35,111 bases of DNA, taken from positions 1-35,111 of the forward strand of contig JASBTR010000061.1 of NCBI GenBank assembly GCA_030148325.1, written 5' to 3'. Both the position numbers and the translations under genes were made by a program. The DNA comes from Gammaproteobacteria bacterium (GTDB taxonomy: Bacteria; Pseudomonadota; Gammaproteobacteria; UBA6429; Thiohalophilaceae). Numbering within the stretch: the first letter of the stretch is position 1; the number at the start of each line of letters is the position of its first letter. Shown here piece by piece: positions 1,846-30,437 of this stretch. Under the pieces are notes generated by a model. The model searched no databases. It had not been told where the DNA came from and saw only the letters and a program-made list of their open reading frames with translations.

Positions 1846-3144
1846 ATGAATCCCCGTCTCGCCGCCGTCTATGTTCTGCAACAGGTCCTCGACCAGGGCC
1901 GCAACCTGCCCGATGCGCTGGAAACCGTGCATTCACGCATACCGGATCAAAAGGGCCGCGCGCTTACCCAGGCGCTGAGCTACGGCGTACTGCGCCACGG
2001 CTTTAGCCTTGACGCCATCTTGCTGCAACTGCTGAAAAAGCCGCTTAAAGCCAAAGATTCCGACCTCCGCTACCTGATCCTGCTCGGCCTCTACCAGATT
2101 ATTCACATGCGGGTGCCGAATCATGCCGCCGTCTCTGAAACCGTAAAGCTCACCCCGGCGCTGAAAAAGAACTGGGCGCGGGCCATGGTCAACGGGGTGC
2201 TGCGCAACTACCTGCGTCAGACCGATGCGCTGCTGGCATCGATCGAAAAAGAGGACATCAGCCGTTACGAACACCCACGCTGGCTACTGGACAGGCTACG
2301 GGCAAACTGGCCGGATAGCTGGCAGGCGATCGCCACGGCCAATAACCAGCCCGCGCCCATGACCCTGCGAGTCAACCCGCAAAAAATCAGCCGTGAAGAT
2401 TACCTGCAGCGACTTAAAACCGCGGGCATCCCGGCCGAGTTCTGCCGTCATTCAAAAGCGGGGCTGCGCCTGAATGAAGCGGTGGCGGTGGAGCAGCTGC
2501 CCGGCTTTAAAAAAGGCCTGGTCTCGGTGCAGGATGAAGCCGCGCAACTCGCCGCGCAACTGTTACAGGCGGCCCCGGGCGAGCGCATCCTCGATGCCTG
2601 CGCCGCCCCCGGCGGTAAAACGGCACATATTCTGGAAACTCAGCCGCAACTGACCCGGCTGAATGCGCTGGAACAGGTTCCGGCGCGACTCGAGTATGTA
2701 CGTGACACCCTGCAACGCCTCAGCCTTAAGGCGAAGTTAATTGCCGGCGACGCCAGCCAGCCAGATGCATGGTGGGACGGCAAGCCCTATGATAGGATTT
2801 TACTGGATGCGCCCTGCAGCGCCAGCGGCGTGATTCGTCGTCACCCTGACATTAAATACCTGCGCCGCGATGAAGATCTGGAAACACTGGTTCGCACTCA
2901 GCAACAGATACTCCAGGCCCTCTGGCCGTTGCTGGCCGCTGGCGGTATGCTTTTATATGTAACCTGCTCGGTGCTGGCAGAGGAAAATAACCGGCAGATT
3001 GAAGAGTTTCTGGGCGCCTGCAACGACGCCCGGCTGGAGCCCCTGGATACAGACTGGGGAACCGCAACCACGGCCGGCCGACAAATCCTGCCCGGCGAGG
3101 AGAATATGGATGGCTTCTTTTATGCCTGTTTGCGCAAGGCATAA
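1846..3144 (+). CDS. rsmB: 16S rRNA (cytosine-967-C5) methyltransferase
   Basis: Methylates C967 of 16S rRNA using S-adenosylmethionine. The N-terminal 130 residues are an all-helical NusB-like RNA-binding domain; the C-terminal part is a Rossmann methyltransferase. SAM motif DACAAPGGKT lies at 250-259. The two cysteines typical of RNA m5C enzymes are present: C324 in DAPCSASG and the catalytic C374 in YVTCSV. Length of 432 residues is normal for RsmB (also called Sun or RrmB). The start at 1846 has only a weak ribosome site, but the sequence after it fits the family N-terminus. Its 3' end overlaps the next gene by 35 bases, suggesting translational coupling. Confidence 0.96.
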   Translation: MNPRLAAVYVLQQVLDQGRNLPDALETVHSRIPDQKGRALTQALSYGVLRHGFSLDAILLQLLKKPLKAKDSDLRYLILLGLYQIIHMRVPNHAAVSETVKLTPALKKNWARAMVNGVLRNYLRQTDALLASIEKEDISRYEHPRWLLDRLRANWPDSWQAIATANNQPAPMTLRVNPQKISREDYLQRLKTAGIPAEFCRHSKAGLRLNEAVAVEQLPGFKKGLVSVQDEAAQLAAQLLQAAPGERILDACAAPGGKTAHILETQPQLTRLNALEQVPARLEYVRDTLQRLSLKAKLIAGDASQPDAWWDGKPYDRILLDAPCSASGVIRRHPDIKYLRRDEDLETLVRTQQQILQALWPLLAAGGMLLYVTCSVLAEENNRQIEEFLGACNDARLEPLDTDWGTATTAGRQILPGEENMDGFFYACLRKA

Positions 3145-3724
3145 ATTATTACCGGCAACCCCTGACCTGCGTGTATACACGCTGGCCGCGGCGCTATGCC
3201 TGCTGGCCCTGCTGGCCCCGCCGCCCGCCCAGGCGGCTGAAGCCTTCGTTATTAAATCGCTGGAAACCCGTCTGCGTAACAATGTCTATTCCTTCAGCAC
3301 CCATATCGAATACGGCTTCTCGGATGAGGCGCTGGTGGCGCTGAAAAACGGCGTGCCCCTGATTATTATCCTGAATATCGAGGTCCAGGAAGAACGCTGG
3401 TACTGGAACAAAACCATCGCCGAACTGGAACAGGGCTACCTGCTGATCTATCACGCCCTGTCGGAAAAATTCATCATCCACAACCTCAACAGCGGCGTCC
3501 AGACCGACTATTCCAGTCTCAGCGATGCCCTGCATGCACTGGGCTATATCGATAACCTGCCCCTGATCGACGCCAAGCTGCTGAAACCCGACAGCCGTTA
3601 TATCCTGCGCCTGCGCAGCGAACTCGACATTGAATCCCTGCCGGCGCCAATGCGCCCACTGGCCTATATTTCTTCTGACTGGCGACTGCAAAGCGACTGG
3701 TACACATGGCCATTAACGCCCTGA
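3110..3724 (+). CDS. DUF4390-family secreted protein
   Basis: Exported protein of unknown function. I set the start at 3110 because a good ribosome site (GAGGAGA, 3097-3103) lies six bases upstream; this gives 204 residues. An earlier in-frame start at 2999 would be buried in rsmB and would place out-of-frame rsmB-derived sequence before the signal peptide. Residues about 16-42 form a signal peptide (basic region, a Leu/Ala-rich core, then a PAQA-AEA-type cleavage site). The mature part has the immunoglobulin-like or beta-rich look of DUF4390 proteins, which are found between rsmB and an NtrY-like kinase in many Gammaproteobacteria. It overlaps the kinase gene by 19 bases. That coupling suggests, without proving, a periplasmic role linked to the kinase. 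Confidence 0.85.
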   Translation: MASFMPVCARHKLLPATPDLRVYTLAAALCLLALLAPPPAQAAEAFVIKSLETRLRNNVYSFSTHIEYGFSDEALVALKNGVPLIIILNIEVQEERWYWNKTIAELEQGYLLIYHALSEKFIIHNLNSGVQTDYSSLSDALHALGYIDNLPLIDAKLLKPDSRYILRLRSELDIESLPAPMRPLAYISSDWRLQSDWYTWPLTP

Positions 3725-5946
3725 TCAAACGCTTTTTCTCCGGCAGCACACCGATTATTCTGGTGTTCCTGCTGCTGCTCAACTCACTCTATATGATGAG
3801 CGGCGCGACCCACAGCTCGGCCACCTTCGGCCAGCTTTATTCCCTGCTGCTGGCAATTAACATTCTTGCTATTTTCCTGTTCCTGGTGCTGATCGGCAAA
3901 AGCCTGTGGCTGCTGGTACAACAGTACCGGCAACAGACCACCGGCTCGCGCCTGACTGCCAAACTGGTAATCATGTTCGTAATCCTTTCAGTTACCCCGG
4001 TCACCATCGTTTTCTATTTTTCTCAGGACTTCATTAAACGCGGCATCGACAGCTGGTTCGATGTGCGGGTAGAGAATGCCCTCAATGACGCGCTGAAACT
4101 GGGTCAGGCCGCGCTCGATGAGCGTATGCGCGAACTGCTGCAACGCACTCGCCAGGTGGCCCAGCAACTGGAAGCAACGGACAACAATCTGGTGGCGCTG
4201 AAACTCAACGATCTGCGTATGGAGCTGGATGCGCGGGAACTAACCCTGTTTGCCAAGAATGGTCAGATCATCGCGTCCAACAGCACCGAAACCGCACGCC
4301 TGGTGCCGGTGCATCTGGATGACACCACCCTGCACCTGCTCCACCAGCGTGCTTATAAGGTTGGCCTGATTCCGGTCAAGGATGCCGGCCTGCATATCCG
4401 CACTGCCGTTGCCGTGCCCGGCACCGGCATCGTCGGCGAGGGCCGCATCCTGCAGGCGCTGTTCCCGGTTGACGAACACATGAACGAACTGGCCAACAGC
4501 GTGCAATCCGCCTTCGGTCAGTACCGGGAGATCACCTATCTGCGCACACCGCTGAAATACAACTTTATCCTCACCCTGTCGCTGGTGCTGTTGCTGAGCA
4601 TTCTCACCGCTATCTGGGCCGCCTTCTATGCGGCACGGCGCATGACCGCCCCTATTTATGATCTGGTAGAAGGCACCCGCGCCGTGGCCGCCGGCAACTA
4701 CGACAAACGCCTGCCCCTGCCCGGCAATGACGAGCTGGGCTTTCTGGTGACCTCCTTCAACGACATGACCTGGAAAATCGCCCAGGCGCGGGAAGAGGCC
4801 AGCGACAGCCAACGGCAGTTACAGGCCCAGCACACCTATCTCGAAACCGTGCTCGCCAACCTGTCCTCCGGCGTACTGACCCTGGACACTGAACTCAATC
4901 TGCGCACCTGCAACCGGACCGCCAGTCAGATCCTCGGCCTGAATATCGACGCCTTCCTGCAACAGCCGTTAAACGCCCTGGCGAAAAAAAACCCGGGCCT
5001 GCAGATTTTTGTCGAAACCGTCAGCAGCCGACAGACGGATAACGAGCCCGGCTGGCAGGCGGAAATCAGCCTGCTGGGGCCGGCCGGGCACAAGGTGCTG
5101 ATGTGCCGCGGATCTATTCTTCCCGGCAGCGACGACAGCCCGGAAGGGCTGGTCGTTGTCTTCGATGACATCACCACCCTGCTGCAGGCCCAGCGCAACG
5201 CCGCCTGGGGCGAAGTCGCCCGGCGCCTGGCACATGAGATCAAAAATCCGCTGACCCCCATCCAGCTTTCCGCCGAGCGCCTGCGCCATAAATATCTGCA
5301 CACTATGCCCAAAAAAGATGCCGATGTGCTGGATCGGGCCACCCACACCATCGTCCAGCAGGTGGAAACCATGAAAGAACTGGTCAAAGCCTTCAGTGAG
5401 TATGCCCGCATGCCGGTGCTGGAACTGGAAGCCCTGAATCTCAACCGCCTGATCGAGGAAGTGCTGGATCTATACCGCGGCGCCGGTTCCCGGCTGCAGT
5501 TCGATCTCGAACTGGATCCAGCCATCCCACCGGTAGAAGCCGATGCCGGCCGCCTGCGCCAGTTACTGCATAACCTGGTGAAAAATGCCCAGGAAGCCAT
5601 GCATCATGCAACTGGCAGCAAAATCAAAATCCGCACCCGCTGCGGCGAGGAACAGGCCTGTCAGTTCGTCGAACTGCGCCTGAGCGATACCGGCCCCGGC
5701 ATTCCCGAAGATATGTTTGATCACCTGTTCGAGCCCTATGTCACCAGCAAACCCAAGGGCAGCGGCCTGGGTCTGGCCATCGTCAAGAAAATCGTCGAGG
5801 AACATGGCGGTGTGCTGTGGGCGGAAAACAACAAGGGTGCCGGCGCCAGCATAGTGATACGATTACCGGTGGCGCATGGCGCCACCGCCTCCTCCAGCCC
5901 GGAGCCACCTGAAAACGATGACAGCTATAACCATGCAACCGCTTGA
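3706..5946 (+). CDS. ntrY: NtrY-like membrane sensor histidine kinase
   Basis: Inner-membrane kinase that phosphorylates the response regulator encoded next to it. Domains in order: three N-terminal membrane segments (about 15-34, 45-72, 85-107), a periplasmic sensor region (about 110-285), a fourth membrane segment (286-311), HAMP (312-365), PAS (about 375-495), then the kinase core. The H-box is RLAHEIKNPLTPIQLSAERL with phosphorylated H510; the N-box is HNLVKNAQEA (622-631); the G-boxes are DTGPGIPEDM (661-670) and GSGLGLAIV. All catalytic parts look intact. The length of 746 residues and the topology match NtrY. The signal is unknown. The adjacent potassium genes trkA and trkH and the DUF4390 gene suggest envelope or ion stress rather than classic nitrogen control, but this is inference. 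Confidence 0.92.
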   Translation: MAINALIKRFFSGSTPIILVFLLLLNSLYMMSGATHSSATFGQLYSLLLAINILAIFLFLVLIGKSLWLLVQQYRQQTTGSRLTAKLVIMFVILSVTPVTIVFYFSQDFIKRGIDSWFDVRVENALNDALKLGQAALDERMRELLQRTRQVAQQLEATDNNLVALKLNDLRMELDARELTLFAKNGQIIASNSTETARLVPVHLDDTTLHLLHQRAYKVGLIPVKDAGLHIRTAVAVPGTGIVGEGRILQALFPVDEHMNELANSVQSAFGQYREITYLRTPLKYNFILTLSLVLLLSILTAIWAAFYAARRMTAPIYDLVEGTRAVAAGNYDKRLPLPGNDELGFLVTSFNDMTWKIAQAREEASDSQRQLQAQHTYLETVLANLSSGVLTLDTELNLRTCNRTASQILGLNIDAFLQQPLNALAKKNPGLQIFVETVSSRQTDNEPGWQAEISLLGPAGHKVLMCRGSILPGSDDSPEGLVVVFDDITTLLQAQRNAAWGEVARRLAHEIKNPLTPIQLSAERLRHKYLHTMPKKDADVLDRATHTIVQQVETMKELVKAFSEYARMPVLELEALNLNRLIEEVLDLYRGAGSRLQFDLELDPAIPPVEADAGRLRQLLHNLVKNAQEAMHHATGSKIKIRTRCGEEQACQFVELRLSDTGPGIPEDMFDHLFEPYVTSKPKGSGLGLAIVKKIVEEHGGVLWAENNKGAGASIVIRLPVAHGATASSSPEPPENDDSYNHATA

Positions 5947-5953
5947 AACTGAC

Positions 5954-7354
5954 ATGACTGAGCCGAGGACACACAGTGCGCCCTATATTCTGGTGGTCGA
6001 TGACGAGCCGGATATCCGTCATCTGGTGCAGGAAATTCTCGAAGATGAAGGCTATGAAGTCAGCGTTGCCGAAAACGGTGAAGCCGCACGCACCGCCCAC
6101 CGCCAGCGGCGCCCCGATCTGGTGCTGCTGGATATCTGGATGCCTGATCTGGATGGCATCAGTCTGCTGAAAGAGTGGGCCGAGGACGGCCAGTTACCCA
6201 TGCCGGTACTGATGATGTCCGGCCACGGCACGGTAGAAACCGCCGTCGAAGCCACTCGCCTGGGCGCCTATGACTTCATCGAGAAACCCCTGTCACTGGC
6301 CAAGCTGCTGCTGACGATTGAACATGCGCTGGAAACCGACAAGCTGCAGCAGGAAAATCGCGGCCTGCTCAGCCATAGTACAAGGATCAAGGAACCCATT
6401 GGCAAGAGTCCACGGATGCAGAAACTGCGCGAGCAGTTACAGCAGGTTGCGGAACATGACAGCTGGGTATTGCTTGATGGCGAACCCGGTTGCGGCATGA
6501 ATGTTGCCGCCCGTTATCTGCACGCCATGAGTAAACGCAGCTCGCGGCGGCTGATTGAAGTCAACCTCGGCGCCCTCTCAGAAAAACATTCCGCCCGCGA
6601 ACTGTTCGGTTATGAAGAAGGTGAAAAGGTCCATTATGGCCTGCTGGAACAGGCCAACGGCGGCAGCCTGCTATTATACGACATTGCCGAAATGGATCCT
6701 GACACCCAGCGCCGGCTGCATTCAGCCCTCTCCGCCAAAACCTTTCTACGCATCGGCGGCGAAGAACCGGTACAGATGCATGCCCGCATCATTGCCGCCA
6801 GCAGTCATGATCTACCGCAGCAGGTTGCCAGCAATCATTTTCGCAAGGATCTCTATTATCAGCTCAACGTGGTGCCGATACACATTCCGCCCCTGCGTGA
6901 ACATCGCGAAGATATTCCCGAACTGCTGGCTTACTTCAGCCATTATTTTATCGATCAGGAAAATCTGCCCTACCGACATTTCAGCCTGGCCGCACAGAAC
7001 CGTCTGCGCAACTACCCCTGGCCGGGCAATATCCGCGAACTCATGAATCTGGTCCAGCGCCTGCTGATCATCAGCAAGGGTGAAGAGATAACCCTGGAAG
7101 ATGTCGAGACAGCGCTGGGTAATCCACTACCGGCAACACCTGTCAGTGATGCGAGCCATTCAGATACCCAGGCCGATGAATTCAATCGCCCCCTGCGTGA
7201 GGCACGGGAAGAATTTGAACGTCGTTATCTGCGCCATCAACTTGCTCTGAATAATGGCAACGTCAGCAAGGTAGCGCAAATAGCCGGACTGGAACGCACC
7301 CACCTATATCGCAAACTGCGTGCACTGGGGATTGATCCGAAAGATAATAAATAA
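5954..7354 (+). CDS. ntrX: NtrX-like response regulator with degenerate AAA+ domain
   Basis: Response regulator paired with the kinase upstream. The receiver domain (residues about 11-125) is normal: acidic pair D16-D17, phosphate acceptor D60 in LLDIWMP, and K111. The central sigma-54 activator domain (about 148-375) has lost its key parts. Walker A reads GEPGCGM instead of GxxGxGK, the GAFTGA loop after ELFGYEEG is missing, and Walker B reads LLLYDI instead of LFLDEI. The C-terminal Fis-type HTH (about 420-466) looks complete. It probably binds DNA without activating sigma-54 polymerase. Start is uncertain: 5876 and 5918 are also in frame, but 5954 follows the kinase stop by seven bases and gives the short leader usual before ILVVDDE. 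Confidence 0.9.
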
Positions 7355-7367: not shown

Positions 7368-8744
7368 ATGAAAATAATTATCCTCGGCGCCGGACAGGTA
7401 GGCAGTTCCCTGGCAGAAAACCTGACCAACGAAGCCAACGACATTACCCTTGTCGACAAGAATGAAGCCGCCCTGCTGGCGTTACAGGACAGACTGGATC
7501 TGCGCACGATTTACGGTCATGCCTCGCATCCGGATATCCTCAGCCGCGCCGGCGCCGATGACGCCGACATGCTCATCGCCGTCACCGACAGCGATGAAAC
7601 TAATATGCTCGCCTGCCAGGTGGCCTATACCATTTTTCACACGCCCACCAAGATCGCGCGCGTACGCTCGGTCGAATATCTGAAACACAAGCGCCTGTTC
7701 AGTCAGGAAGCGCTGCCCATCGATGTGCTGATCAGCCCTGAGCAGATTATCACCGACTACATTCAGCGCCTGATCCAGCATCCCGGCACCCTGCAGGTAC
7801 TGGATTTCGCCAATGGTCAGGTCCAGCTGGTCGGCGTGCGCGCCTATTACGGCGGTCCCATGGTCGGCCACGAACTGCGTGAAATCGGCGCCCATATGCC
7901 CAAGGGCGTCGATACCCGCGTGGCCGCCATCTATCGTCAGGATCGCGCCATCATTCCCGAAGGCCACACGCTGATTGAAGCGGATGACGAAGTTTTCTTT
8001 ATCGCTGCCACTGAACACATCAGCACGGTAATGAGTGAATTGCGACGACTGGACACCCCTTACCGCCGGATCATGATCGTCGGCGGCGGCAACATCGGCA
8101 AGCGGGTCGCCAAAGCGCTGGAAAACGACTATCAGGTCAAACTCATCGACCACAATGTTGCCCGCGCCAATGAAATTTCAAACGAACTGAATAACACCAT
8201 GGTGTTATTGGGCGATGCCGCCGATGAGGAACTGCTGCAGGAAGAAAATATCGAAAGCATCGATGTCTTCTGCGCACTGACCAACGACGACGAAGCCAAT
8301 ATCCTCTCTTCCATGCTGGCCAAGCGACTGGGCGCGCGCAAGGTGATGACCCTGATCAACCGCGCCGCCTATGTCGATCTGGTGCAAAGCGGTGACATCG
8401 ACATCGCCATTTCACCCCAGCAGTCCACTATCGGCAGCCTGCTCACCCATGTGCGTCGCGGTGACGTGGTCAAGGTTCACTCCCTGCGCCGCGGCGCCGC
8501 CGAGGCCATCGAAGCCATCGCCCATGGCAGCAAGGAATCATCCCGCGTCGTCGGCCTCAGCATCGGTGAACTCAAACTGCCACAGGGCACAACCGTTGCC
8601 GCTATTGTACGTGGCAACCAGGTAATCATCGCCCACCACGACATCGTCATCGAACCGGAAGATCATGTCATTCTTTTCCTTATCGATAAAAACCGTATCT
8701 CCGAGGTAGAGAAGCTGTTCCAGGTTGGGATTACGTTTATATAA
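7368..8744 (+). CDS. trkA: Trk potassium uptake regulatory subunit
   Basis: Cytoplasmic NAD(H)-binding gating subunit of the Trk potassium transporter. Two RCK halves are visible, each with a Rossmann nucleotide motif ([11 protein letters not shown] near residue 7 and [13 protein letters not shown] near residue 239) followed by a TrkA-C domain. From the start at 7368 it has 458 residues, the same length as E. coli TrkA; an upstream in-frame start at 7320 would run back into the regulator gene. It begins 13 bases after the regulator stop, so it is likely in the same operon. The membrane partner trkH follows on the same strand after a repeat-filled gap of 139 bases. Confidence 0.97.
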
Positions 8745-8873
8745 AGGGACGAGGGACGAGGGACGAGAAAATTATGAAAATGAAAAGAAACATATCACAA
8801 CAACTAAAATTTTTGACTGCCATTACTCATGGAAGGGGTTTCCTCGTCACTCGTCCCTCGTCACTCGTCCCTT
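8744..8873 (+). repeat. GGGACGAG inverted-repeat element between trkA and trkH
   Basis: The left arm (8745-8767) is a short tandem of GGGACGA units directly after the trkA stop. The right arm (8844-8873) holds CTCGTC-A and CTCGTCC units on the complementary strand. About 75 bases of A-rich sequence lie between them. If transcribed it could form a long hairpin between the two trk genes. No gene is visible inside. It is one of several paired-arm repeat families in this window. Confidence 0.7.
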
Positions 8874-8883
8874 AATTTAGTCC

Positions 8884-10338
8884 ATGCAATTCCTCGTCAT
8901 CCAGCGCATTGTCGGTCTTCTGCTCGTAATCTTCAGCTCGACCATGCTGCCGCCTATGCTGGTATCGGTCATTTATCTGGATAGCAACTTTGAGTCTTTC
9001 TTTTACGCCTTTGCCGTGACCCTGATCACTGGCATCGTGCTCTGGTTTCCGGTAAAAAACCAGCGCCGGGAACTACGTTTACGGGATGGTTTCCTGGTGG
9101 TGGTCATGTTCTGGACAGTGCTGGGCCTGTTCGGTGCAATTCCCTTCATCCTCGCGGAACATCCGCACCTGACCATTACCGATGCGGTTTTTGAATCCCT
9201 TTCCGGCCTGACCACCACCGGTGCTACGGTGCTGGAAGGCATCGACCACCTGCCCAAAAGCATTCTCTATTATCGCCAGCAGCTACAGTGGCTGGGTGGC
9301 ATGGGTATCATCGTACTGGCCGTAGCCATCATGCCTATGCTCGGTATCGGCGGCATGCAGCTGTATCGCGCCGAAACTCCCGGCCCCATCAAGGACAGTA
9401 AGCTCACGCCACGCATTACCGAAACCGCCAAGGCGCTCTGGTACATTTACCTGACCCTGACTGTGGCCTGCGGTATCGGCTACTGGATGGCGGGCATGGA
9501 GGTATTCGATGCGCTGGCGCACAGTTTTTCAACCGTGGCTATCGGCGGCTTTTCCACCCACGATGCCAGCATGGGTCATTACATCGACAAACCCATGGTT
9601 GAAGTCGTGGCGATTATTTTTATGTTCATTTCCGGGATCAACTTCGCCCTTCACTTTACCGCGTGGCGGACTCGCAACCTGCGCAATTATCTGTTCGACT
9701 CCGAATTCAAAACCTATCTCGCCATCATTCTGGTCGCCTGCGCTGTCACTACCGGCTATCTTTATTATCAGAACCTGTTCGCCACACACCAGGAAACCCT
9801 GATTCACAGTATCTTTCAGGTGGTCTCGATCGGCACTACCACCGGTTTCACCACCCACCAGTATCATCTGTGGCCAGGCTTCCTGCCGGTCATGCTGCTG
9901 TTCACCAGTTTCATCGGCGCCAGTGCCGGTTCTACCGGCGGCGGCATGAAAGTTATCCGCTTCCTGCTGCTGCTGCGCCAGGGCATGCGCGAAATCATGC
10001 GCGTCATTCATCCCAATGCAATTATACCCATCAAGATTGGCGGCAAGGCCATGCCGCCACGGGTGGTGGAATCCGTCTGGGGCTTCTTTTCCGCCTATGT
10101 CGCCGCCTTCGTTATTATTATGCTGATCATGATGATGACAGGGCTGGATCAGGTGACCGCTTTCTCCGCCGTCGCCGCAACCATGAACAACCTCGGCCCG
10201 GGTCTGGGTGAAGTAGCACTCAACTACGCTTCGCTGGAAGCTGCGGCCAAGTGGGTGCTGTGCTTCGCCATGCTGCTGGGACGACTGGAAATCTTCACCC
10301 TGCTGGTGTTGCTGACCCCCGCGTTCTGGCGCAAGTGA
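8884..10338 (+). CDS. trkH: Trk potassium uptake membrane subunit
   Basis: Potassium-translocating subunit in the inner membrane, working with TrkA. Length of 484 residues matches the family (E. coli TrkH is 483). The four pore-loop signatures that form the selectivity filter can be read in order: LTTTGAT, VAIGGFST, IGTTTGFTT and MNNLGPGLG. The rest is strongly hydrophobic with about ten membrane segments. No clear ribosome site precedes ATG 8884, which sits eleven bases after the inverted-repeat element, so translation or mRNA processing could be influenced by that hairpin (inference). Encoded close to trkA, whereas in E. coli the two genes are unlinked. Confidence 0.97.
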   Translation: MQFLVIQRIVGLLLVIFSSTMLPPMLVSVIYLDSNFESFFYAFAVTLITGIVLWFPVKNQRRELRLRDGFLVVVMFWTVLGLFGAIPFILAEHPHLTITDAVFESLSGLTTTGATVLEGIDHLPKSILYYRQQLQWLGGMGIIVLAVAIMPMLGIGGMQLYRAETPGPIKDSKLTPRITETAKALWYIYLTLTVACGIGYWMAGMEVFDALAHSFSTVAIGGFSTHDASMGHYIDKPMVEVVAIIFMFISGINFALHFTAWRTRNLRNYLFDSEFKTYLAIILVACAVTTGYLYYQNLFATHQETLIHSIFQVVSIGTTTGFTTHQYHLWPGFLPVMLLFTSFIGASAGSTGGGMKVIRFLLLLRQGMREIMRVIHPNAIIPIKIGGKAMPPRVVESVWGFFSAYVAAFVIIMLIMMMTGLDQVTAFSAVAATMNNLGPGLGEVALNYASLEAAAKWVLCFAMLLGRLEIFTLLVLLTPAFWRK

Positions 10339-10443
10339 TCACTCTCTCTTGACGCAGAACTCAGCTCCGCGTTTACACACCCGCCCTTCCCTCAGCACAG
10401 TCGTGCTAATTATCCCTGACTAGCCACGCCAGCGCATATATGC

Positions 10444-10472
10444 TTGACCATATATATGGATATCCATATAAT
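10444..10472 (+). promoter_or_regulatory. near-consensus sigma-70 promoter of the ars operon
   Basis: TTGACC (10444-10449), a 17-base spacer, and a perfect TATAAT (10467-10472). The expected transcription start, seven bases after the -10 box, is 10479, which is exactly the A of the arsR start codon, so the mRNA is probably leaderless. The spacer holds a perfect palindrome (10453-10470), the best candidate for the ArsR operator. Confidence 0.8.
10453..10470. promoter_or_regulatory. palindromic operator candidate for ArsR
   Basis: TATATGGATATCCATATA is a perfect 18-base palindrome lying between the -35 and -10 boxes and overlapping the first four bases of the -10. A bound repressor there would block RNA polymerase. 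ArsR-family dimers bind inverted repeats at such positions. Assignment to ArsR is inference from position. A second short palindrome, GCATATATGC, lies just upstream (10434-10443). Confidence 0.6.
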
Positions 10473-10478
10473 TCAACT

Positions 10479-10838
10479 ATGACTGAAATCGAATTCTACA
10501 AACAACTGGCCGATGAAACCCGGCTGCGCTGCCTGATGCTGATACTTGCTGAAGACGAACTCTGCGTCTGCGAGCTGACCCATGCACTGGACCTCTCTCA
10601 GCCGAAAATTTCTCGCCATCTCGCCAACCTGCGCCAGGCCGGTGTCCTGAAAGATCGTCGTGACGGCCAGTGGATTCACTACTGTCTGCATGAAAATCTG
10701 CCCGCATGGGCGCACAACGTACTGACGGCAACTGCGGAGGGACTGGCTCAAACCAGCCTTTATGCACAAGATCGCAACAAACTCAAAAGCATGACAGGCC
10801 GCCCCGGCAGTGTCTGCGCTACGACTGTCTCAGGATAA
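10479..10838 (+). CDS. arsR: arsenic-responsive ArsR repressor
   Basis: Winged-helix repressor that releases DNA on binding As(III). The metal-site motif ELCVCEL (C29 and C31) at the start of the DNA-binding region is that of classic E. coli-type ArsR. The recognition helix is in LSQPKISRHLANLRQAGVL, followed by the beta-wing DRRDGQWIHY. It has 119 residues. I chose start 10479; an in-frame ATG at 10440 lies upstream of the promoter -35 box and could not be on the transcript. No Shine-Dalgarno is present, in line with a leaderless mRNA. It leads an operon with arsC and acr3 and presumably represses it. Confidence 0.94.
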   Translation: MTEIEFYKQLADETRLRCLMLILAEDELCVCELTHALDLSQPKISRHLANLRQAGVLKDRRDGQWIHYCLHENLPAWAHNVLTATAEGLAQTSLYAQDRNKLKSMTGRPGSVCATTVSG

Positions 10839-10854
10839 ATACGAAGGAGAACAC

Positions 10855-11280
10855 ATGAAACTGCTGTTTCTATGCACCGGCAATGCCTGCCGTTCGCAAA
10901 TGGCCGAAGGCTGGGCGCATGCGCTGGCGGGGGAAACAATAAACGTCTATTCAGCCGGGATTGAAGCCCACGGCCTGAACCCGCGCGCCGTATCCGTCAT
11001 GCAGGAGGCAGGCGTCGATATATCCAGGCAGGAATCAACCCGGCTCAGCGAGGATATGCTGGGGCAGATGGACTATGTCGTCACCGTCTGCGGCCATGCC
11101 GACGAACGCTGTCCGATTCTGCCGCCAGGCGTGCGTAAGGAACACTGGCCACTGCCTGATCCCGCCAAAGCCGAGGGTACCGAAGACGACATTATGCAGG
11201 TCTTTCGTCGCAGCCGGGATGATATTAAACAGCGCACCCAGGCATTGATCGAACGGCTGTTAAAGGAATCAGCGGCATGA
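10855..11280 (+). CDS. arsC: thioredoxin-linked arsenate reductase
   Basis: Reduces As(V) to As(III) in the cytoplasm so that it can be exported. It belongs to the low-molecular-weight tyrosine phosphatase fold: the P-loop is CTGNACRS (nucleophile C7, R13), the catalytic Asp is in LPDPAKAEG (D102). The redox pair C79 and C86 in VCGHADERC matches the thioredoxin-coupled reductases of the Staphylococcus and Bacillus type, not the glutaredoxin type of E. coli plasmids. Length is 141 residues. The start at 10855 has an excellent ribosome site (AAGGAGA, 10844-10850); an upstream start at 10810 would overlap arsR. Its stop overlaps the acr3 start (ATGA), so translation is coupled. Confidence 0.94.
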   Translation: MKLLFLCTGNACRSQMAEGWAHALAGETINVYSAGIEAHGLNPRAVSVMQEAGVDISRQESTRLSEDMLGQMDYVVTVCGHADERCPILPPGVRKEHWPLPDPAKAEGTEDDIMQVFRRSRDDIKQRTQALIERLLKESAA

Positions 11281-12377
11281 ATATATTTGAACGTTATCTG
11301 ACTCTCTGGGTACTGCTGTGCATTCTCGCCGGTATCAGCCTGGGGCAACTGTTTCCCGCCTTTTTTCATACTCTGGGAACAATCGAACTTGCCCGCATCA
11401 ACCTGCCGGTTGCGCTGCTGGTCTGGCTGATGATCATTCCCATGTTGCTGAAAATTGATCTACGCGCGCTTAAAGGTGTAAGACAACACTGGCGCGGCGT
11501 AGGCATTACCCTGTTTGTAAACTGGGGCGTTAAACCTTTCTCCATGGCCCTGCTGGGCTGGCTGTTCATCGGTATGCTGTTCCGTCCCTGGCTGCCCGCT
11601 GCGCAAATCGATTCCTATATTGCCGGACTGATTATTCTGGCGGCTGCGCCCTGTACCGCCATGGTCTTCGTCTGGAGCCACCTGATGCGCGGCGAGCCCC
11701 ATTTCACCCTCTCCCAGGTCGCGCTCAACGACGTCATCATGGTCGTCGCCTTTGCCCCGATAGTCGGCCTGCTGCTGGGCCTGTCCGCCATCACCGTACC
11801 CTGGGACACCCTGCTGCTGTCGGTGCTGATCTATATCGTCATTCCACTGATAGCCGCCAGCCTCTGGCGTCGGCAGACACTCCGTCATAAACAGGGTTAT
11901 GCCCGCCTGGCGCGGCAAATCAAACAACTGGGCAGCGTATCGCTGGTAGCCCTGCTCTGCACCCTGATCCTGCTGTTCGGTTTTCAGGGCCAACAGATCA
12001 TCCAGCAACCGCTGATCATCCTGCTGCTGGCTATTCCCATTCTGCTACAGGTACTCTTCAATTCAGGCCTGGCCTACCTGCTCAACCGCGCAGCGCGCAC
12101 CCCCCATTGCATTGCCGGACCCTCGGCTTTAATCGGCGCCAGCAATTTCTTCGAACTGGCGGTCGCCACTGCCATCGCCCTGTTCGGATTTGAATCAGGC
12201 GCTGCGCTGGCCACCGTAGTCGGGGTACTGATCGAAGTACCGGTCATGCTGCTCGCGGTACGGGTGGTCAATGCCAGCCGCCACTGGTACGAACAGCGCC
12301 CCAGCGTTGTCCCCTATGAAAAGTGCTGCCCCACGGATGCGCATCTGCACAGCCACTCTAATCCTGGACCAGCCTAG
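11277..12377 (+). CDS. acr3: ACR3-family arsenite efflux permease
   Basis: Inner-membrane carrier that exports arsenite made by the reductase. About ten hydrophobic segments run through 366 residues. The ACR3 signature PCTAMVFVWS with essential C126 is present, as are the conserved ALIGASNFFELAVA and GVLIEVPVML segments near the end. This is the ACR3 class, unrelated to E. coli ArsB. The C-terminal tail carries CCPTDAHLHSH, a Cys/His-rich stretch that might bind metal (speculative). The start overlaps the arsC stop by four bases. The gene ends a few bases before a truncated IS630 remnant on the opposite strand, so any further ars genes that once followed could have been lost. Confidence 0.93.
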   Translation: MNIFERYLTLWVLLCILAGISLGQLFPAFFHTLGTIELARINLPVALLVWLMIIPMLLKIDLRALKGVRQHWRGVGITLFVNWGVKPFSMALLGWLFIGMLFRPWLPAAQIDSYIAGLIILAAAPCTAMVFVWSHLMRGEPHFTLSQVALNDVIMVVAFAPIVGLLLGLSAITVPWDTLLLSVLIYIVIPLIAASLWRRQTLRHKQGYARLARQIKQLGSVSLVALLCTLILLFGFQGQQIIQQPLIILLLAIPILLQVLFNSGLAYLLNRAARTPHCIAGPSALIGASNFFELAVATAIALFGFESGAALATVVGVLIEVPVMLLAVRVVNASRHWYEQRPSVVPYEKCCPTDAHLHSHSNPGPA

Positions 12378-12392
12378 AAAAAAAGAAAAAGG

Positions 12393-13348
12393 GAACGACA
12401 TGGATAGTTGCATAGCGTCGATAGCGCCTTGCCAGTTCCTTTAACCAGATAATAAACCCATCTGAATTTTTTCTATCTGATTCCGTCCAAATAATATGAC
12501 CTGTCACAGGATTGAGTCCACCAAACAAATAGCGTTTTTTATTTTGCCCCGGCGTGGCAATATTGAATTGGGTACCGCGCTGCATCCAGCAAGGGCCGAT
12601 TTTCGGGTTCAGATGTATATCAACTTCATCTTGATAAATCATCATTTCATCATCACCTAAATTAGCCTGTAATGCCTTAATTTTACCTGTTTTTATGGCT
12701 TTTCCATGTGGGTTGTCACTGGCTTTGCAGGTTGGTCTCGCTCGCCCCCATCGAATGTTCAACATATGCAGTAACCGGCCAATATGGCTTTCATGACACC
12801 GGATACCTGTTTCGTATTCCAGTTGCTGCGCCAGCAACTCTCTTGTCCAGGTACTGCGTTGCCAACCCTGTTCCTGAGGACTCTGATAAATAAGCACCTC
12901 AAGTCGCTCAAGGTAGTCCTCGGTCACTTTTGTTGCCTGTTTCTCCTCTCGACGATCACGCAGTCCGTCTATCCCTTCTTCGCTAAATCGCCGTAGTACA
13001 CGGCCAATCGTCGATGGGGCCGTACCTAATATTTGATCATACGTAGGTACTTAAGCGTATGAACAATTGCAGGTACGGCTTTAGCCGTACAAAATACTCA
13101 ATTATGCGCCACACTCTACGTTATTTAACCGCTGCTGTTCGCCTGAAGGCGAACCTGCAGGTGAATGAATTCCTTAAGTACCTACGTATGAATATTTGAT
13201 ATATTGTGGCATAGCTTAAGCCTCGATGCCGGGTCAATATGATCCGATATCGCTTTTCCTGAGCTGAATTTGTTTCTCCTTTAGCCAATTTTTCCAGTTT
13301 TTTCTTTTGGTATAGTATAATTTGAGCTTCACCGGCAAGACCTCTTCT
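12393..13348 (-). pseudogene. truncated IS630-family transposase interrupted by a MITE
   Basis: A dead transposase reading from right to left. The N-terminal HTH part (13348 to about 13201) reads SYATIYQILGTAPSTIGRV across the insertion once the 163-base MITE plus one target copy is removed. It continues through RRFSEEGIDGLRDRRE into a DDE domain with the first Asp in IYQDEVDIHL. The frame breaks off after TIHVV, where IS630 proteins normally continue with LDN, so the second and third catalytic acids are gone. Beyond the junction near 12393 lies A/G-rich sequence abutting acr3. The longest intact part (12358-12927) covers only the middle of the protein. The original start codon is unclear. 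Confidence 0.85.
13038..13190. mobile_element. MITE-like element with CATACGTAGGTAC ends, copy 1
   Basis: The 153 bp element has perfect 18-base terminal inverted repeats, CATACGTAGGTACTTAAG (13038-13055) and its complement (13173-13190). It is flanked by the direct repeat AATATTTGAT (13028-13037 and 13191-13200). If the terminal repeats are extended by one base pair, the duplication is 8 bases. It has no coding capacity. It carries two internal hairpins, GTACGGC-TTTA-GCCGTAC and TTCGCC-TGAA-GGCGAA. It sits in the IS630 transposase gene, and its removal with one target copy restores the frame. Confidence 0.85.
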
Positions 13349-18556: not shown

Positions 18557-21172
18557 TCAAAACGGCAATTTCAGCGACGGATTGATCGCCAGCATCACGG
18601 CTCTGAATTCATCCTGAATGCGTTTCAACGCCTCCTCGCTTTGTGCTTCAAAACGCAGCACCAGACAGGGTGTGGTGTTGGAGGCCCGCACCAGTCCCCA
18701 GCCATCTTCGTAATCCACCCTGATGCCGTCAATCATGATGACATTCGCATTGGCAAAATCGGCCTTATCAAGCAGCGCATCCATGAACTTGAAGTGCTCA
18801 CCCTCGGCCATGCCCAGATTCAGTTCCGGGGTGTTCACCGCATCGGGCAGGGCGGCAAAAATTTCATGTGCAGGCCGATCATCAGCCGCAATGATCTCCA
18901 GCAGGCGCGCAGCGGCGTACAAACCATCATCAAAGCCATACCAGCGTTCCTTGAAGAAAATATGCCCGCTCATCTCACCGGCCAACAAGGCGCCGGATTG
19001 CTGCATCTTGGCCTTGATCAGGGAATGGCCGGTCTTCCACATTAGCGGTTCGCCGCCTTTTTCCCAGATGACTTTAGTCAGGTTACTGCTGCATTTAATA
19101 TCGTAAATGATCTGTGCGCCATGATTGCGCGACAATACATCGGCGGCGAACAGCATCATCAGTCGATCCGGCCAGATAATGCTGCCATTGGAACTGACCA
19201 CACCCAGGCGATCACCATCACCATCAAATGCCAGCCCCAGATCCGCATTCTGCGCACGCACGGTTTCAATCAGATCCTTCAGGTTCTCCGGCTTGCTGGG
19301 ATCGGGATGATGGTTGGGAAAATGCCCGTCCACTTCACTATAGAGCTCAATCACCTCGCAGCCCAAAGAATTGAACAACTTCGGCGCGATCGCACCGGCG
19401 ACGCCGTTGCCACAGTCGATAACAACTTTCAGTTTGCGCCTGAGTTTAACGTCCGAGGTAATGCGCTGGATGTACTCGTTGCTGATAACCCGGGTGGCGT
19501 ATTCCCCGCTGCCGCGGGTGAAATCTTCATTAAGGATGCGTTCCCGTAAAGACTGGATAGCATCCCCGGACAGGGTTTCCCCGCCCAATACCATTTTTAT
19601 GCCGTTATAGTCCGGCGGATTATGGCTGCCCGTCAGCATCACGCCGGTGCCTTCTGTCAATTCCGCTGCCGCGTAATACAGCACCGGCGTCGGCACCATG
19701 CCAATATCCAGCACATCCATGCCTGCCGCCTGCAAGCCTTTGACCAGCGCCCCACCCAGTTCCGGTCCAGATAGACGCCCGTCACGGGCAAAGGTAATCT
19801 TGCCCAGACCACGGCCAATCGCCTCACTACCCAGCGCCTGTCCAATCAGCATCATATACTGCGCAGTCAGGGTCTTGCCGACCACCCCACGAATATCATA
19901 GGCCTTGAAAATGGAAACCGGCGGTAACCCCGGCTTCTCCTGCTCAGGCTGAGCAGTGCTTTGCAGGCTGCTGTCCGACACCCCGGCCTTCGCCGGCTGC
20001 TGCATCTGCTGGCTCATACTCTGCTTGAATTCAGCATCATCCTCCAGTTCCTGAACTTCCATAACCCCGGTATCCATGAATACCCTGTCCATGCTGCCGG
20101 ACATGCTGATGTCACTGATGCTGATGGCATCGGGATCATCATCCCGCTCCCTGTCCAGCGACTTACCCTGCTTCAGATTGTCGAAACGCCCGGCAGCGGT
20201 CTTGAATTCCGGCATTTTAAGACTGTATTCGTGACGCTTGATGCCGCGCAGGAAATTGGCTTCCAGCTGCATGAAGCTCTCGATGTCGTTCCGGATAGCC
20301 CGGCTCAGGGCGCTTTTTAACAGGAAGATAAGCATGGCGCTGAGCAGCATCGCTACCAGCACGATGACCAGCAGGTTCATGTTAAACAGGGCGGGCACTG
20401 CCAGCGGCGTCCACACGATCATGCGCCAGCGTGTGCCCGTCACGCTGGACTCCGCCGTTTGGCCGTTTGTTTTTGCCCTCACATCGCCAGCCTGCCCAAT
20501 CACCAGCGCCGGCTTGCCTTCCACCGGCTGGGTCAGTTCCAGATAGCCCTTGATGCCATCTTCCTGCAACCACTTGCTGATCAGCGTGACATCCAGCGCC
20601 AGCTGAATATGACCTACCACCTTATCGCCTGTCAGCGACAGCACCGGTTGCATAATATCGATATGCTGCTGACGAGTGCCGAACATATGAATTTCCACCG
20701 GCGGGCTGAGGTGGGTTTTTTCTGCCTGACGCTGCATATCCAGACAGGCAAAGCCCAGGTGCGGCTCCTGCGTCCTGTCCACCTTGAAGACCCCGGTCGG
20801 CAACATACGCATGCGCAAAGCACCGGGAAACTGTTTTTTCAACTGTTCGGCCCTGGCCTGCCTGGCCGCATCATCACCCGAGAGAATCAGACGGCGCACC
20901 TGCGGATCAGTGGCGATGCCTCGTAACGCCTGAGCGTAATAGGCCACCTTGAAAGCCAGCTTGTGCGCCGTTCGTTCAGCGATGGCATTGACCACCTCTC
21001 GCTGCTGCAGGCGCAACTCCGTAAGACCGGGGTACTGACTGAAAAAACTCGCAGCCAGAATAATCAAACTGAAAAACACAAATGCCAGCAAGCTGGCCAT
21101 GTTCAGACTGAGCGCACGCTGTGCACCGCTTTTTTTGCTCTTACGTGTCCGACGTTTCCGTGCTTTCGCCAC
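18557..21172 (-). CDS. algC: phosphomannomutase/phosphoglucomutase with membrane N-terminal extension
   Basis: Interconverts mannose or glucose 1- and 6-phosphates for LPS and exopolysaccharide precursors. The catalytic part fills residues about 418-871: catalytic S516 in TGSHNPPDYNG, Mg site D650, D652 and D654 in FDGDGDR, sugar loop GEMSGHIFF, and phosphate loop RASNTTPCL. Before it come a membrane segment (about 24-45), a periplasmic sensor-like region (46-257), a second membrane segment (258-286) and an acidic Ser/Met-rich linker (about 335-415). Long AlgC forms of this kind occur in Pseudomonas. Total is 871 residues. The start is GTG, preceded by GGGAG ten bases upstream. The role of the membrane part is unknown. 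Confidence 0.93.
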   Translation of the reverse strand: MAKARKRRTRKSKKSGAQRALSLNMASLLAFVFFSLIILAASFFSQYPGLTELRLQQREVVNAIAERTAHKLAFKVAYYAQALRGIATDPQVRRLILSGDDAARQARAEQLKKQFPGALRMRMLPTGVFKVDRTQEPHLGFACLDMQRQAEKTHLSPPVEIHMFGTRQQHIDIMQPVLSLTGDKVVGHIQLALDVTLISKWLQEDGIKGYLELTQPVEGKPALVIGQAGDVRAKTNGQTAESSVTGTRWRMIVWTPLAVPALFNMNLLVIVLVAMLLSAMLIFLLKSALSRAIRNDIESFMQLEANFLRGIKRHEYSLKMPEFKTAAGRFDNLKQGKSLDRERDDDPDAISISDISMSGSMDRVFMDTGVMEVQELEDDAEFKQSMSQQMQQPAKAGVSDSSLQSTAQPEQEKPGLPPVSIFKAYDIRGVVGKTLTAQYMMLIGQALGSEAIGRGLGKITFARDGRLSGPELGGALVKGLQAAGMDVLDIGMVPTPVLYYAAAELTEGTGVMLTGSHNPPDYNGIKMVLGGETLSGDAIQSLRERILNEDFTRGSGEYATRVISNEYIQRITSDVKLRRKLKVVIDCGNGVAGAIAPKLFNSLGCEVIELYSEVDGHFPNHHPDPSKPENLKDLIETVRAQNADLGLAFDGDGDRLGVVSSNGSIIWPDRLMMLFAADVLSRNHGAQIIYDIKCSSNLTKVIWEKGGEPLMWKTGHSLIKAKMQQSGALLAGEMSGHIFFKERWYGFDDGLYAAARLLEIIAADDRPAHEIFAALPDAVNTPELNLGMAEGEHFKFMDALLDKADFANANVIMIDGIRVDYEDGWGLVRASNTTPCLVLRFEAQSEEALKRIQDEFRAVMLAINPSLKLPF

Positions 21173-27199: not shown

Positions 27200-28189
27200 A
27201 TGTCATCCGATTTACTGATTAGTGTTACCAACCTCGATCGTCAGTACGGCGCACTGCAGGCCGTGCATGATGTCAGTTTCGAACTCCGACGCGGTGAAGT
27301 GCTGGGTTTCCTCGGCCCCAACGGCGCAGGCAAATCCACCACCATGCAGATCATCACCGGTAACCTGGCACCCAGCAATGGACAGGTACGCATCTGCGGC
27401 ATCGACCTGCTGGATGCACCCCGACAGGCCAAGGCGCACATCGGTTACCTGCCGGAAAAACCGCCCCTGTACCGGGAACTGAGCGTAGATGAATATCTTG
27501 GCTTCTGCACCCGGCTTAACCGAATTCCGAAAACACAACGCCAGGCCGCTCTTGAGCGTGCCAAACAACGTTGCGGTCTGGAGCAGGTAGGCCAACGTTT
27601 AATCAATAATTTATCCAAAGGCTACCAGCAGCGGGTCGGCATCGCCCAGGCCATTATTCACAGCCCCGACATCGTAGTGCTGGATGAGCCTACCGTGGGA
27701 CTGGATCCTATTCAAATTCGCGAAATCCGCCACCTCATCCGCGAGCTGGCCGAAGAGCATGCGGTGATCCTCTCAACCCATATTCTGCCCGAAGTACAAA
27801 TGACCTGCAGCCGGGTACAGATCATCAATCAGGGACAACTGGTGTTCTGCGATGACATCGATAATCTCAACCGCCGCATGCGCGCGCGCAGCCTGATCCT
27901 CGGCCTGCAACAGTCACCGACAGGCATTATTAGCGAACTGGAAAGCATCGAGGGCGTCGAAACGGTAGAGGCACTGGAAAACAGTCGCTGGCGCATCCAG
28001 CATACTGAAGATCAAAGCCCGGCCAGCCGGATTGCCGAGAAGGCAGTGCAAAACAACTGGGGGCTGACCGAGTTAAGTCCGGAAACGCGCAGCCTGGAAC
28101 AGATCTTCCTCGACATTACCAGCAGCGACCAGGCGCTGCCTGAAACCGCCGACATCGACGCCGGGACAAAGGGAGGACAGGCCGCATGA
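27200..28189 (+). CDS. ABC transporter ATP-binding protein (GldA-like)
   Basis: Cytoplasmic ATPase of an ABC-2 type transporter, 329 residues. Walker A is GPNGAGKST (39-47), the signature is LSKGYQQR (138-145), Walker B IVVLDEP (158-164) and the switch His H194. A C-terminal extension of about 100 residues follows the ATPase, as in the GldA and CcmA-like drug or polysaccharide exporters. It overlaps the permease gene by four bases (ATGA). The four-gene set ATPase, permease, GldG-like protein and DUF4340 protein resembles the gliding-associated Gld transporter of Bacteroidetes by family, but in Gammaproteobacteria it is not tied to gliding. The substrate is unknown. Confidence 0.93.
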   Translation: MSSDLLISVTNLDRQYGALQAVHDVSFELRRGEVLGFLGPNGAGKSTTMQIITGNLAPSNGQVRICGIDLLDAPRQAKAHIGYLPEKPPLYRELSVDEYLGFCTRLNRIPKTQRQAALERAKQRCGLEQVGQRLINNLSKGYQQRVGIAQAIIHSPDIVVLDEPTVGLDPIQIREIRHLIRELAEEHAVILSTHILPEVQMTCSRVQIINQGQLVFCDDIDNLNRRMRARSLILGLQQSPTGIISELESIEGVETVEALENSRWRIQHTEDQSPASRIAEKAVQNNWGLTELSPETRSLEQIFLDITSSDQALPETADIDAGTKGGQAA

Positions 28190-28947
28190 TGATTTTTACT
28201 CTTGCCGCACGCGAACTGCGCAGCCTGTTTCTTTCACCGCTGGCCTGGTCCATTCTCGCCGTAGTGCAGTTTATTCTCGCCTGGCTGTTTTTATCCCAGT
28301 TAAATGACTTTATTTTGCTGCAGCCACAACTGAAAATGATCGACAACGCCCCCGGCGCCAGCGAACTTGTAATCGCACCGCTCTATGGCAGCGCCGCCTT
28401 TATTATGATGATGGTTAGCCCGCTTCTAACCATGCGGCTTATCAGTGAAGAACGTCGCAGCGGCAGCATTGCCCTGCTCATGTCGGCACCTGTCTCGATG
28501 ACCGAAATCATCCTTGGTAAATTCCTCGGCGTATTCAGTTTCTTGCTATTGATGACGATCATGCTGACACTCATGCCCCTGTCGCTGTTCATCGCCGGCC
28601 CCATTGATCCGGGCCTGCTTGCCGCCCTGTTCCTGGCCTTAAGCTTATTGCTGGCCTCTTTCACTGCGCTCGGCCTGTACATGTCCACTCTTACCCTGCA
28701 GCCAACAGTGGCCGCTGTCAGCACCTTCGGCGCCCTGTTGCTGCTGTGGATCCTCGACTGGGCCGGCGACAAGGTGGGTAATGAAAACGCCGGCGGCCTG
28801 CTGAGTTACCTGTCTATCCTGCGCCATTTCGAGGCGCTGGGCAAAGGCGTGTTCAGCAGCAGCGATGTGATCTACTACCTGTTGTTCATCAGCCTGTTTC
28901 TGATTCTAAGCATCCGTCGCCTGGATGCCGATCGTCTGCAGCACTAA
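28186..28947 (+). CDS. ABC-2 type permease (GldF-like)
   Basis: Inner-membrane partner of the ATPase encoded just upstream, 253 residues with six predicted membrane segments (first about 20-45, last about 225-245). The pattern of a long first loop followed by RLISEERRSGSIALLMSAPVS is the usual coupling segment of ABC-2 permeases that contacts the ATPase. Start ATG 28186 overlaps the stop of the ATPase gene. The GldG-like gene starts twelve bases after its stop behind a GGAG ribosome site. Confidence 0.92.
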   Translation: MMIFTLAARELRSLFLSPLAWSILAVVQFILAWLFLSQLNDFILLQPQLKMIDNAPGASELVIAPLYGSAAFIMMMVSPLLTMRLISEERRSGSIALLMSAPVSMTEIILGKFLGVFSFLLLMTIMLTLMPLSLFIAGPIDPGLLAALFLALSLLLASFTALGLYMSTLTLQPTVAAVSTFGALLLLWILDWAGDKVGNENAGGLLSYLSILRHFEALGKGVFSSSDVIYYLLFISLFLILSIRRLDADRLQH

Positions 28948-28959
28948 CGGAGACGAGGC

Positions 28960-30339
28960 ATGAAAATAAATAACAAAATTCGCACCCAGTTACGTCTACA
29001 GAACATCATCTTCCTGCTGCTGTTGCTGAGTATTATCGGCCTGCTCGGCTGGCTCTCACAACGCTATAGTTACGAAGCCGACTGGACCGCCAACCAGCGC
29101 AACACCCTGTCCAAGGCCAGCATCAAGCTGCTGCAGCGTATGCCGGAACCTGTTCGCATTACCGCTTTCGCCCGCGAGAGCGAGCTGCTGCCCACGCGCC
29201 GTAAAATTCGTGAACTGATTGAACGCTACCAGCGCCGCAAGCCCGATATCGAGCTGCGCTTCATCGACCCGAACACCGAACCGGATCGGGTACGCAGTGA
29301 AGGTATCACGGTAGATGGTGAACTGATTGTCGAATATCAGGATCGCCGCGAACATATCCAGAATCTGAACGAGGAAACCCTCACTAACACCCTGCAACGC
29401 CTGCTGCGTAGTGGGGAACAGAAAATCGTTTTCATCAGCGGCCACGGTGAACGCAAACCCGATGGTCAGGCCAACCATGACTACGGCCAGTTCATGAAAC
29501 AGCTGGCACGCAAGGGCATACAGGCTACCAGTCTAAGTCTGAATGACAAGCCAGAAATTCCAGCTGACACGTCGGTGGTCGTGATCGCCGGCCCCCAGGT
29601 CGATTACCTGCCCGGTGAAGTGAAGATCCTGCAGGATTATCTCGATCAGGGCGGCAACCTGCTCTGGCTGCATGATCCCGGTTCACGCTACGGCCTCGAC
29701 AGTCTGGCCGAGTCGCTGGGCATCAGTTTTGTTCCCGGGACCATTGTCGATCCCACTACCCAGGTGCTGGGCATAGCCGATCCTTCCTTCGCCCTGGTCA
29801 CCGGCTATGGCGATCACCCGATCGTGCGCGACTTTACCTATATGACCATCTACCCACGTGCAAGCGGGCTGAAGCACTTCGAAAAAAATAACTGGACCGC
29901 AGAGGTCCTGCTGCAAACCGTGGCCCGCAGCTGGTCTGAAACCTCAAAACTGGAAGGCACGATCGCCTTTGATGAAGGCAGTGATGCACCCGGCCCGCTG
30001 ACCATCGGCTTTGCCCTGACTCGATCAAACGCAGATGCTGCCGAAAATAAAACCGAGGTAAAAGAAAGCAGTCAACGCGTCATCATCCTCGGTGACGGCG
30101 ATTTTATTTCCAATGCCTATCTGGGAAATCAGGGTAACCAGGATCTCGGTTATAACCTGATCAACTGGCTAAGCCATGACGACAATTTTATAGCCATTCC
30201 TTCCACCACCGCGCTTGATACCGAACTGGTGCTGGAAGAACGCACCTGGTCACTGCTGGGGCTGGTTTTTTTAATTGTAATACCGGTGATGCTGCTGGTG
30301 GCCGGAATTGTAATCTGGCTGAAGCGGCGGAAACGGTGA
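28960..30339 (+). CDS. GldG-like ABC transporter auxiliary protein
   Basis: A 459-residue membrane-anchored protein with one N-terminal membrane segment (about 15-35), a large periplasmic part, and one C-terminal segment (about 432-453) ending in basic residues WLKRRKR. The periplasmic part has the ABC-transporter auxiliary / DUF4350-like look: SKASIKLLQRMPEPVRITAF, then VFISGHGERKP, and VIAGPQVDYLPGEVKILQDY with GGNLLWLHDPG, a GATase-like Rossmann core. This matches GldG of gliding Bacteroidetes and its homologues elsewhere. It probably forms part of the same inner-membrane complex; no enzymatic residue set is evident. A ribosome site GGAGACGAGG precedes the start. Confidence 0.88.
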   Translation: MKINNKIRTQLRLQNIIFLLLLLSIIGLLGWLSQRYSYEADWTANQRNTLSKASIKLLQRMPEPVRITAFARESELLPTRRKIRELIERYQRRKPDIELRFIDPNTEPDRVRSEGITVDGELIVEYQDRREHIQNLNEETLTNTLQRLLRSGEQKIVFISGHGERKPDGQANHDYGQFMKQLARKGIQATSLSLNDKPEIPADTSVVVIAGPQVDYLPGEVKILQDYLDQGGNLLWLHDPGSRYGLDSLAESLGISFVPGTIVDPTTQVLGIADPSFALVTGYGDHPIVRDFTYMTIYPRASGLKHFEKNNWTAEVLLQTVARSWSETSKLEGTIAFDEGSDAPGPLTIGFALTRSNADAAENKTEVKESSQRVIILGDGDFISNAYLGNQGNQDLGYNLINWLSHDDNFIAIPSTTALDTELVLEERTWSLLGLVFLIVIPVMLLVAGIVIWLKRRKR

Positions 30340-30357
30340 TAGCCTTTTTAAGTAACC

Positions 30358-30437
30358 TGTAGGTTGGAGTGAATAAAACGAGGCCCAACAAGTTACCGTA
30401 TAATGTTGGGCTTCGCTCTCGCTCAACCCAACCTGCA
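30358..30437. repeat. GGTTGGG-type imperfect inverted repeat
   Basis: The left arm (30358-30390) starts TGTAGGTTGG and ends GGCCCAACA; the right arm (30404-30437) starts TGTTGGGC and ends CAACCCAACCTGCA. The arms pair imperfectly around a 13-base loop. It fills the 130-base gap between the GldG-like and DUF4340 genes and could form a hairpin on their shared transcript. Confidence 0.65.

Follow-up and report, generated by a model that had tools for sequence, protein, structure and literature searches.

The closest described relatives of the regulator analysed here belong to the NtrYX family. In Bordetella, the betaproteobacterial member PlrPSR is encoded in the order rsmB-plrP(DUF4390)-plrS-plrR-trkA-trkH (PMC13001219). 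It combines a HEIKN kinase with a phospho-dependent HTH regulator, and a role for the DUF4390 protein PlrP as third partner, keeping the phosphatase activity of PlrS in check, has been proposed (PMC13001219). NtrX-type regulators without an AAA+ domain have been reported from betaproteobacteria (PMC13001219). In alphaproteobacteria, NtrX directly recognises a palindromic site when phosphorylated, and expression is reduced at genes where this site overlaps a start site (PMC9223101). NtrC proteins that lack the GAFTGA motif work at sigma-70 promoters (PMC10274813). ATP binding is reported as necessary in Rhodobacter capsulatus (PMC10274813), both binding and hydrolysis in Caulobacter. Among gammaproteobacteria, an annotated NtrX of Thioalkalivibrio thiocyanoxidans is entered as lacking GAFTGA in Table 2 of PMC5744179, a trait it shares with the protein described below. 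NtrX proteins without GAFTGA and NtrX proteins without an AAA+ domain are both already known.

A PlrPSR-like locus in a gammaproteobacterium

We analysed a stretch of 35,111 nucleotides from a gammaproteobacterium of the Thiohalophilaceae, referred to as the window. It encodes an NtrYX system with the following neighbours (window coordinates):

1846-3144, plus strand: rsmB, 16S rRNA methyltransferase, conserved upstream neighbour (synteny)
3122-3724, plus strand: PlrP (DUF4390) exported protein (PF14334, E 2.7e-44; hydrophobic leader; start codon uncertain)
3706-5946, plus strand: sensor kinase of the NtrY/PlrS type; its N box, its G boxes and the HEIKN phosphoacceptor (H510) are all intact
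5954-7354, plus strand: NtrX/PlrR-type response regulator of 466 aa with receiver, AAA+-like domain, lid and Fis HTH (translation, Pfam; best PDB match Brucella NtrX, 5m7n)
7368-8744, plus strand: trkA, conserved downstream neighbour (NCBIfam PRK09496; synteny)
8884-10338, plus strand: trkH, downstream neighbour at many orthologous loci (synteny)

The locus has the hallmarks of PlrPSR and the beta-gamma NtrYX systems: rsmB and plrP (DUF4390) lie directly upstream of the kinase-regulator pair, the kinase carries HEIKN with H510, and the receiver carries D60. The DUF4390 gene is present as a single copy in the source genome. Most of 80 named gammaproteobacterial loci display the order rsmB-DUF4390-ntrY-ntrX-trkA-trkH or its rsmB to ntrX part. 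Gene order, kinase type and a regulator with an HTH domain are thus shared with Bordetella. However, while the betaproteobacterial regulators are reported as AAA+-less, the window NtrX has a full-length AAA+ domain without the ATPase residues.

ATPase motifs of the window NtrX

The preliminary description of this DNA had placed the gene at the right coordinates, on the right strand and in the right frame, and the open reading frame contains no internal stops. Pfam assigned Response_reg to residues 12-122, Sigma54_activat to 149-310, AAA_lid_14 to 315-391 and HTH_8 to 418-457. The parts of the gene relevant here are:

5981-6325, plus strand: receiver domain (PF00072), phosphoacceptor D60 at 6131-6133 and K111 at 6284-6286
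6392-6892, plus strand: AAA+ alpha/beta core, residues 147-313 (PF00158), ATPase motifs lost, predicted fold intact (AF2, Foldseek)
6479-6502, plus strand: Walker A remnant GEPGCGMN, residues 176-183, Lys replaced by Met182 (translation, orthologue alignment)
6599-6667, plus strand: loop 1 region of 23 residues without GAFTGA (PDB and orthologue alignments)
6668-6694, plus strand: Walker B remnant LLLYDIAEM, residues 239-247, Asp-Glu replaced by Tyr242-Asp243 (translation, orthologue alignment)
6860-6862, plus strand: Gln303 at the arginine-finger position, NtrC1 R299 (PDB alignments)
6896-7126, plus strand: AAA+ lid subdomain, residues 315-391 (PF25601)
7205-7333, plus strand: Fis-type HTH (PF02954)

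All three motif losses proposed earlier from the letters alone were borne out. Met182 occupies the position of the Walker A Lys, Tyr242 that of the Walker B Asp, and in alignments to PDB sequences a five-residue gap falls exactly on GAFTG(A). Two further changes had escaped notice: residue 243 has turned from Glu to Asp, and Gln303 stands in for the arginine finger (NtrC1 R299; role according to PMC7175178). The receiver and the HTH are indeed intact, with D60 and K111 present, the HTH matched by Pfam and its recognition helix kept; E447, R448, T449, L451, Y452, R453 and K454 are invariant in a 56-member alignment. Judged as a bEBP, the protein has the AAA+ fold but neither GAFTGA, GxxxxGK, the Walker B Asp-Glu nor the arginine finger. 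An NtrC-type protein devoid of all four should be unable to remodel the sigma-54 holoenzyme.

For control, we turned to the seven further sigma-54 activators that the source genome encodes. GAFTGA, GxxxxGK, Asp-Glu and arginine finger were found in 7/7, and they score 224-259 bits against PF00158 versus 148 bits for the window NtrX, whose own Pfam search gave 144.9 bits for this model. Since rpoN is also present, loss of the motifs through a missing sigma-54 is ruled out. Co-occurrence with rpoN and seven canonical activators would fit a role as poisoned or regulatory subunit in a hetero-oligomer with one of them. We nevertheless regard this as highly improbable: loop 1, the arginine finger and both Walker motifs were lost together, a partner activator is absent from the locus, and orthologues without any AAA+ domain (see below) persist in the same locus.

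Both by sequence and by predicted fold, the closest solved structure is Brucella NtrX (5m7n/o/p). The NtrX family model NF051870 scores the window protein with 459.4 bits, which is below its cut-off of 600 yet the best score among all NCBIfam models. We compared it with 30 alphaproteobacterial NtrX above this cut-off, the label 'alphaproteobacterial' resting on the family model matching only Caulobacter among the control genomes and on a position outside the class of the window. The Walker A Lys was kept in 30/30, Asp-Glu in 29/30, the arginine finger in 30/30 and GAFTGA in 0/30. As proposed earlier, NtrX without GAFTGA thus occurs in other bacteria, and the loss of both Walker motifs goes beyond it. 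While domain order, missing GAFTGA and a similar HTH unite the alphaproteobacterial proteins with the window NtrX, they differ from it in having retained the arginine finger and both Walker motifs. Judging by this control, lack of GAFTGA is a trait shared by every NtrX in our analysis, whereas erosion of the ATPase site is specific to the class of the window.

Motif loss and domain deletion among orthologues

The orthologue set comprised 255 sequences, 250 of them full length. D60 and K111 were kept in all 255, and GAFTGA was found in none of the 250 full-length proteins. Of the latter, 178 have the Walker A Lys; among the 72 without it, 41 carry Arg and 31 another residue. Asp-Glu was intact in 76 and missing in 174, the arginine finger was kept in 36 and missing in 214, and R297 together with the sensor 2 Arg (R361) was kept in most orthologues. 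In an even sample across the class, 104 of 146 NtrX lacked Asp-Glu and 24 lacked Lys (16 of these having Arg); as this sample was confined to the better-scoring places, decay is probably more frequent than these figures show.

Lys and Asp-Glu were both missing in 20/20 full-length orthologues from the source organism's own family (16 genera), with Ile (8), Met (6) or Leu (5) in place of Lys in 19 of the 20. The preliminary description had taken canonical orthologues in the same context as a sign of a recent mutation. Such orthologues do exist, as Lys and Asp-Glu were both kept in 56 of the 250 (e.g. L018, L067, L139); the loss, however, is old and fixed in the family. A recent mutation, chance or a sequencing error is thereby ruled out as its cause. 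In a FastTree tree computed after removal of the motif columns, 16 of the 20 family sequences fall into a clade of 20 members in which neither Lys nor Arg occurs at the Walker A position. The tree needs a minimum of 16 changes for Lys, 6 for Lys-or-Arg, 25 for Asp-Glu and 15 for the arginine finger, parsimony counts that do not orient the changes. Canonical orthologues in other families such as the three named above suggest that the motifs are ancestral, a direction deduced from these sequences. Among independent pairs, too few of which were informative, a sign test of whether the two Walker motifs tend to be lost together was not significant. Three Chromatiaceae, cultured purple sulfur bacteria (L049, L051, L055), have Arg for the Walker A Lys and an intact Asp-Glu, and offer a handy intermediate state for biochemistry. 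Among culturable relatives, Arg takes the Walker A position in Thiocapsa roseopersicina and Thiorhodococcus drewsii, and Walker B is broken in a Methylobacter strain.

In other relatives, the AAA+ domain itself is reduced. Part of the core is gone in L181 and L184 (about 424-431 aa), L183 (298 aa) has kept the lid alone of the AAA+ region, and the domain is wholly absent in L189, L191 and L192-L194 (about 190-240 aa). Each of these genes adjoins ntrY, and several also have trkA nearby; some of the loci may be betaproteobacterial. Since the AAA+ domain can be deleted partly or wholly, receiver and HTH form the common core of the NtrX family. L185, a 198-aa receiver-Fis protein, was dropped as a candidate AAA-less NtrX as no ntrY match lies alongside; it may be a RegA-type regulator.

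Selection, predicted fold and proposed role of the AAA+ domain

Comparing the window with L002, dN and dS were 0.047 and 0.744 for the AAA core (dN/dS about 0.06), 0.026 and 0.541 for the receiver, 0.049 and 0.923 for the lid, and 0.052 and 0.811 for the HTH, ratios that lie near that of the core. That is, the AAA+ domain of the window NtrX is still under purifying selection. The AAA+ fold was predicted with confidence by AlphaFold2 (pLDDT of 87 on average and above 90 for most of the core), and Foldseek aligned the predicted core to AAA+ domains of sigma-54 activators with TM scores of 0.86-0.93 for most single-domain matches. At matched receiver identity, core identity was 0.50-0.64 within the own family versus 0.58-0.88 among orthologues with Lys and Asp-Glu. 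Together, sequence comparison and model fit a domain in which catalytic constraint would be relaxed and structural constraint retained.

Two other readings of the domain bear on these data. It might be a functionless relic heading for deletion, given that the core changes faster relative to the receiver than in orthologues with both motifs, and that deletions have occurred elsewhere. A core dN/dS similar to that of the other domains and a full-length domain in 20/20 family members speak against this, and we think it improbable. Alternatively, the domain could have given up hydrolysis and yet be regulated by binding a nucleotide or other ligand (e.g. ADP or a cyclic dinucleotide), in the manner of R. 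capsulatus NtrC or the c-di-GMP-responsive FleQ and VpsR. With Asp243 and most P-loop glycines still in place, nucleotides may be bound weakly. The retained fold and the purifying selection are in line with such a role, VpsR and FleQ are among the fold matches, and the R. capsulatus protein requires ATP binding, not hydrolysis (PMC10274813). However, in the window NtrX the nucleotide site itself is lost, the phosphate-binding Lys has given way to aliphatic residues in nearly the whole family, and since the domain is deleted in relatives, the conserved role does not depend on a ligand there. A ligand-binding function therefore appears unlikely, though less so than a relic.

The explanation we consider probable is that the window NtrX is a PlrPSR/NtrYX phospho-switch acting at non-sigma-54 promoters, with a catalytically dead AAA+ domain retained as a scaffold. 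Under modulation by the DUF4390 protein, which is exported, NtrY would phosphorylate and dephosphorylate Asp60 of NtrX, and phosphorylation would alter how the NtrX dimer presents its two Fis-type HTH domains to operator DNA. Through direct contact or occlusion, the protein would then activate or block promoters that other sigma factors use, with neither remodelling of sigma-54 RNA polymerase nor ATP hydrolysis; the folded AAA+ domain would be a scaffold between receiver and HTH. Retention of Asp243 and most P-loop glycines, and of R297 and R361 in most orthologues, speaks against this explanation. The comparative evidence fits the earlier proposal of a phosphorylation-switched DNA-binding protein that is no sigma-54 ATPase: D60 and the recognition helix persist, erosion of the ATPase machinery has occurred repeatedly, and relatives with matching neighbour genes show partial or full deletion of the AAA+ domain. 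From this we infer, as proposed then, action with another sigma factor or as a repressor. GAFTGA-less NtrC of R. capsulatus and Caulobacter would be comparable in this respect, being NtrC-type regulators at sigma-70 promoters. Of the NtrX motifs known from publications, GCAN9TGC was found once upstream of mraZ in the own family versus 1.6 expected, and CAAN2-5TTG 17 times versus 10.4 expected, counts that include one mis-sized region (L326).

In the likely order of losses, GAFTGA would already have been absent; Walker B would have gone next along with the arginine finger, the Walker A Lys after them, and elsewhere the domain would have been deleted in part or completely. Intact ATPase, dead AAA+ and no AAA+ within one gene context would then mark a route from an ATP-driven activator to a plain phospho-switch, and the series supplies natural variants for testing what role is left to the AAA+ domain where a regulator works without sigma-54. 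Our literature search, to which subscription papers were mostly inaccessible, found neither a family-wide pseudo-ATPase NtrX nor such a graded series described. We see an about even chance that, in much of the gammaproteobacteria, a sigma-54 activator lineage has become a response regulator independent of ATP, through a pseudo-AAA+ intermediate actively maintained as structural coupler of receiver and HTH, and that this constitutes a pseudoenzyme class undescribed for NtrX. Annotations commonly list proteins of the NtrX type as sigma-54-dependent regulators, and counts of PF00158 proteins overestimate sigma-54 regulation.

Some further features of the window lie around the locus. An Rfam scan of the window gave zero matches. 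The gap of 139 bases between trkA and trkH (8745-8883) exceeds the other gaps in the cluster and may contain a promoter. Directly 3' of trkH, an arsenic resistance cluster (10440-12377, plus strand) encodes ArsR-like, ArsC-like phosphatase and Acr3-like transporter proteins, as judged from the translations. The end of the transporter gene is overlapped by an apparently shortened IS630-like transposase fragment (12358-12927, minus strand; judged from its translation). Further downstream, we noted an AlgC-like phosphomannomutase/phosphoglucomutase of 871 aa with a long membrane-anchored N-terminal extension (18557-21172, minus strand) and a single run of ABC transporter, GldG-like and DUF4340-like genes (27200-31381, plus strand).
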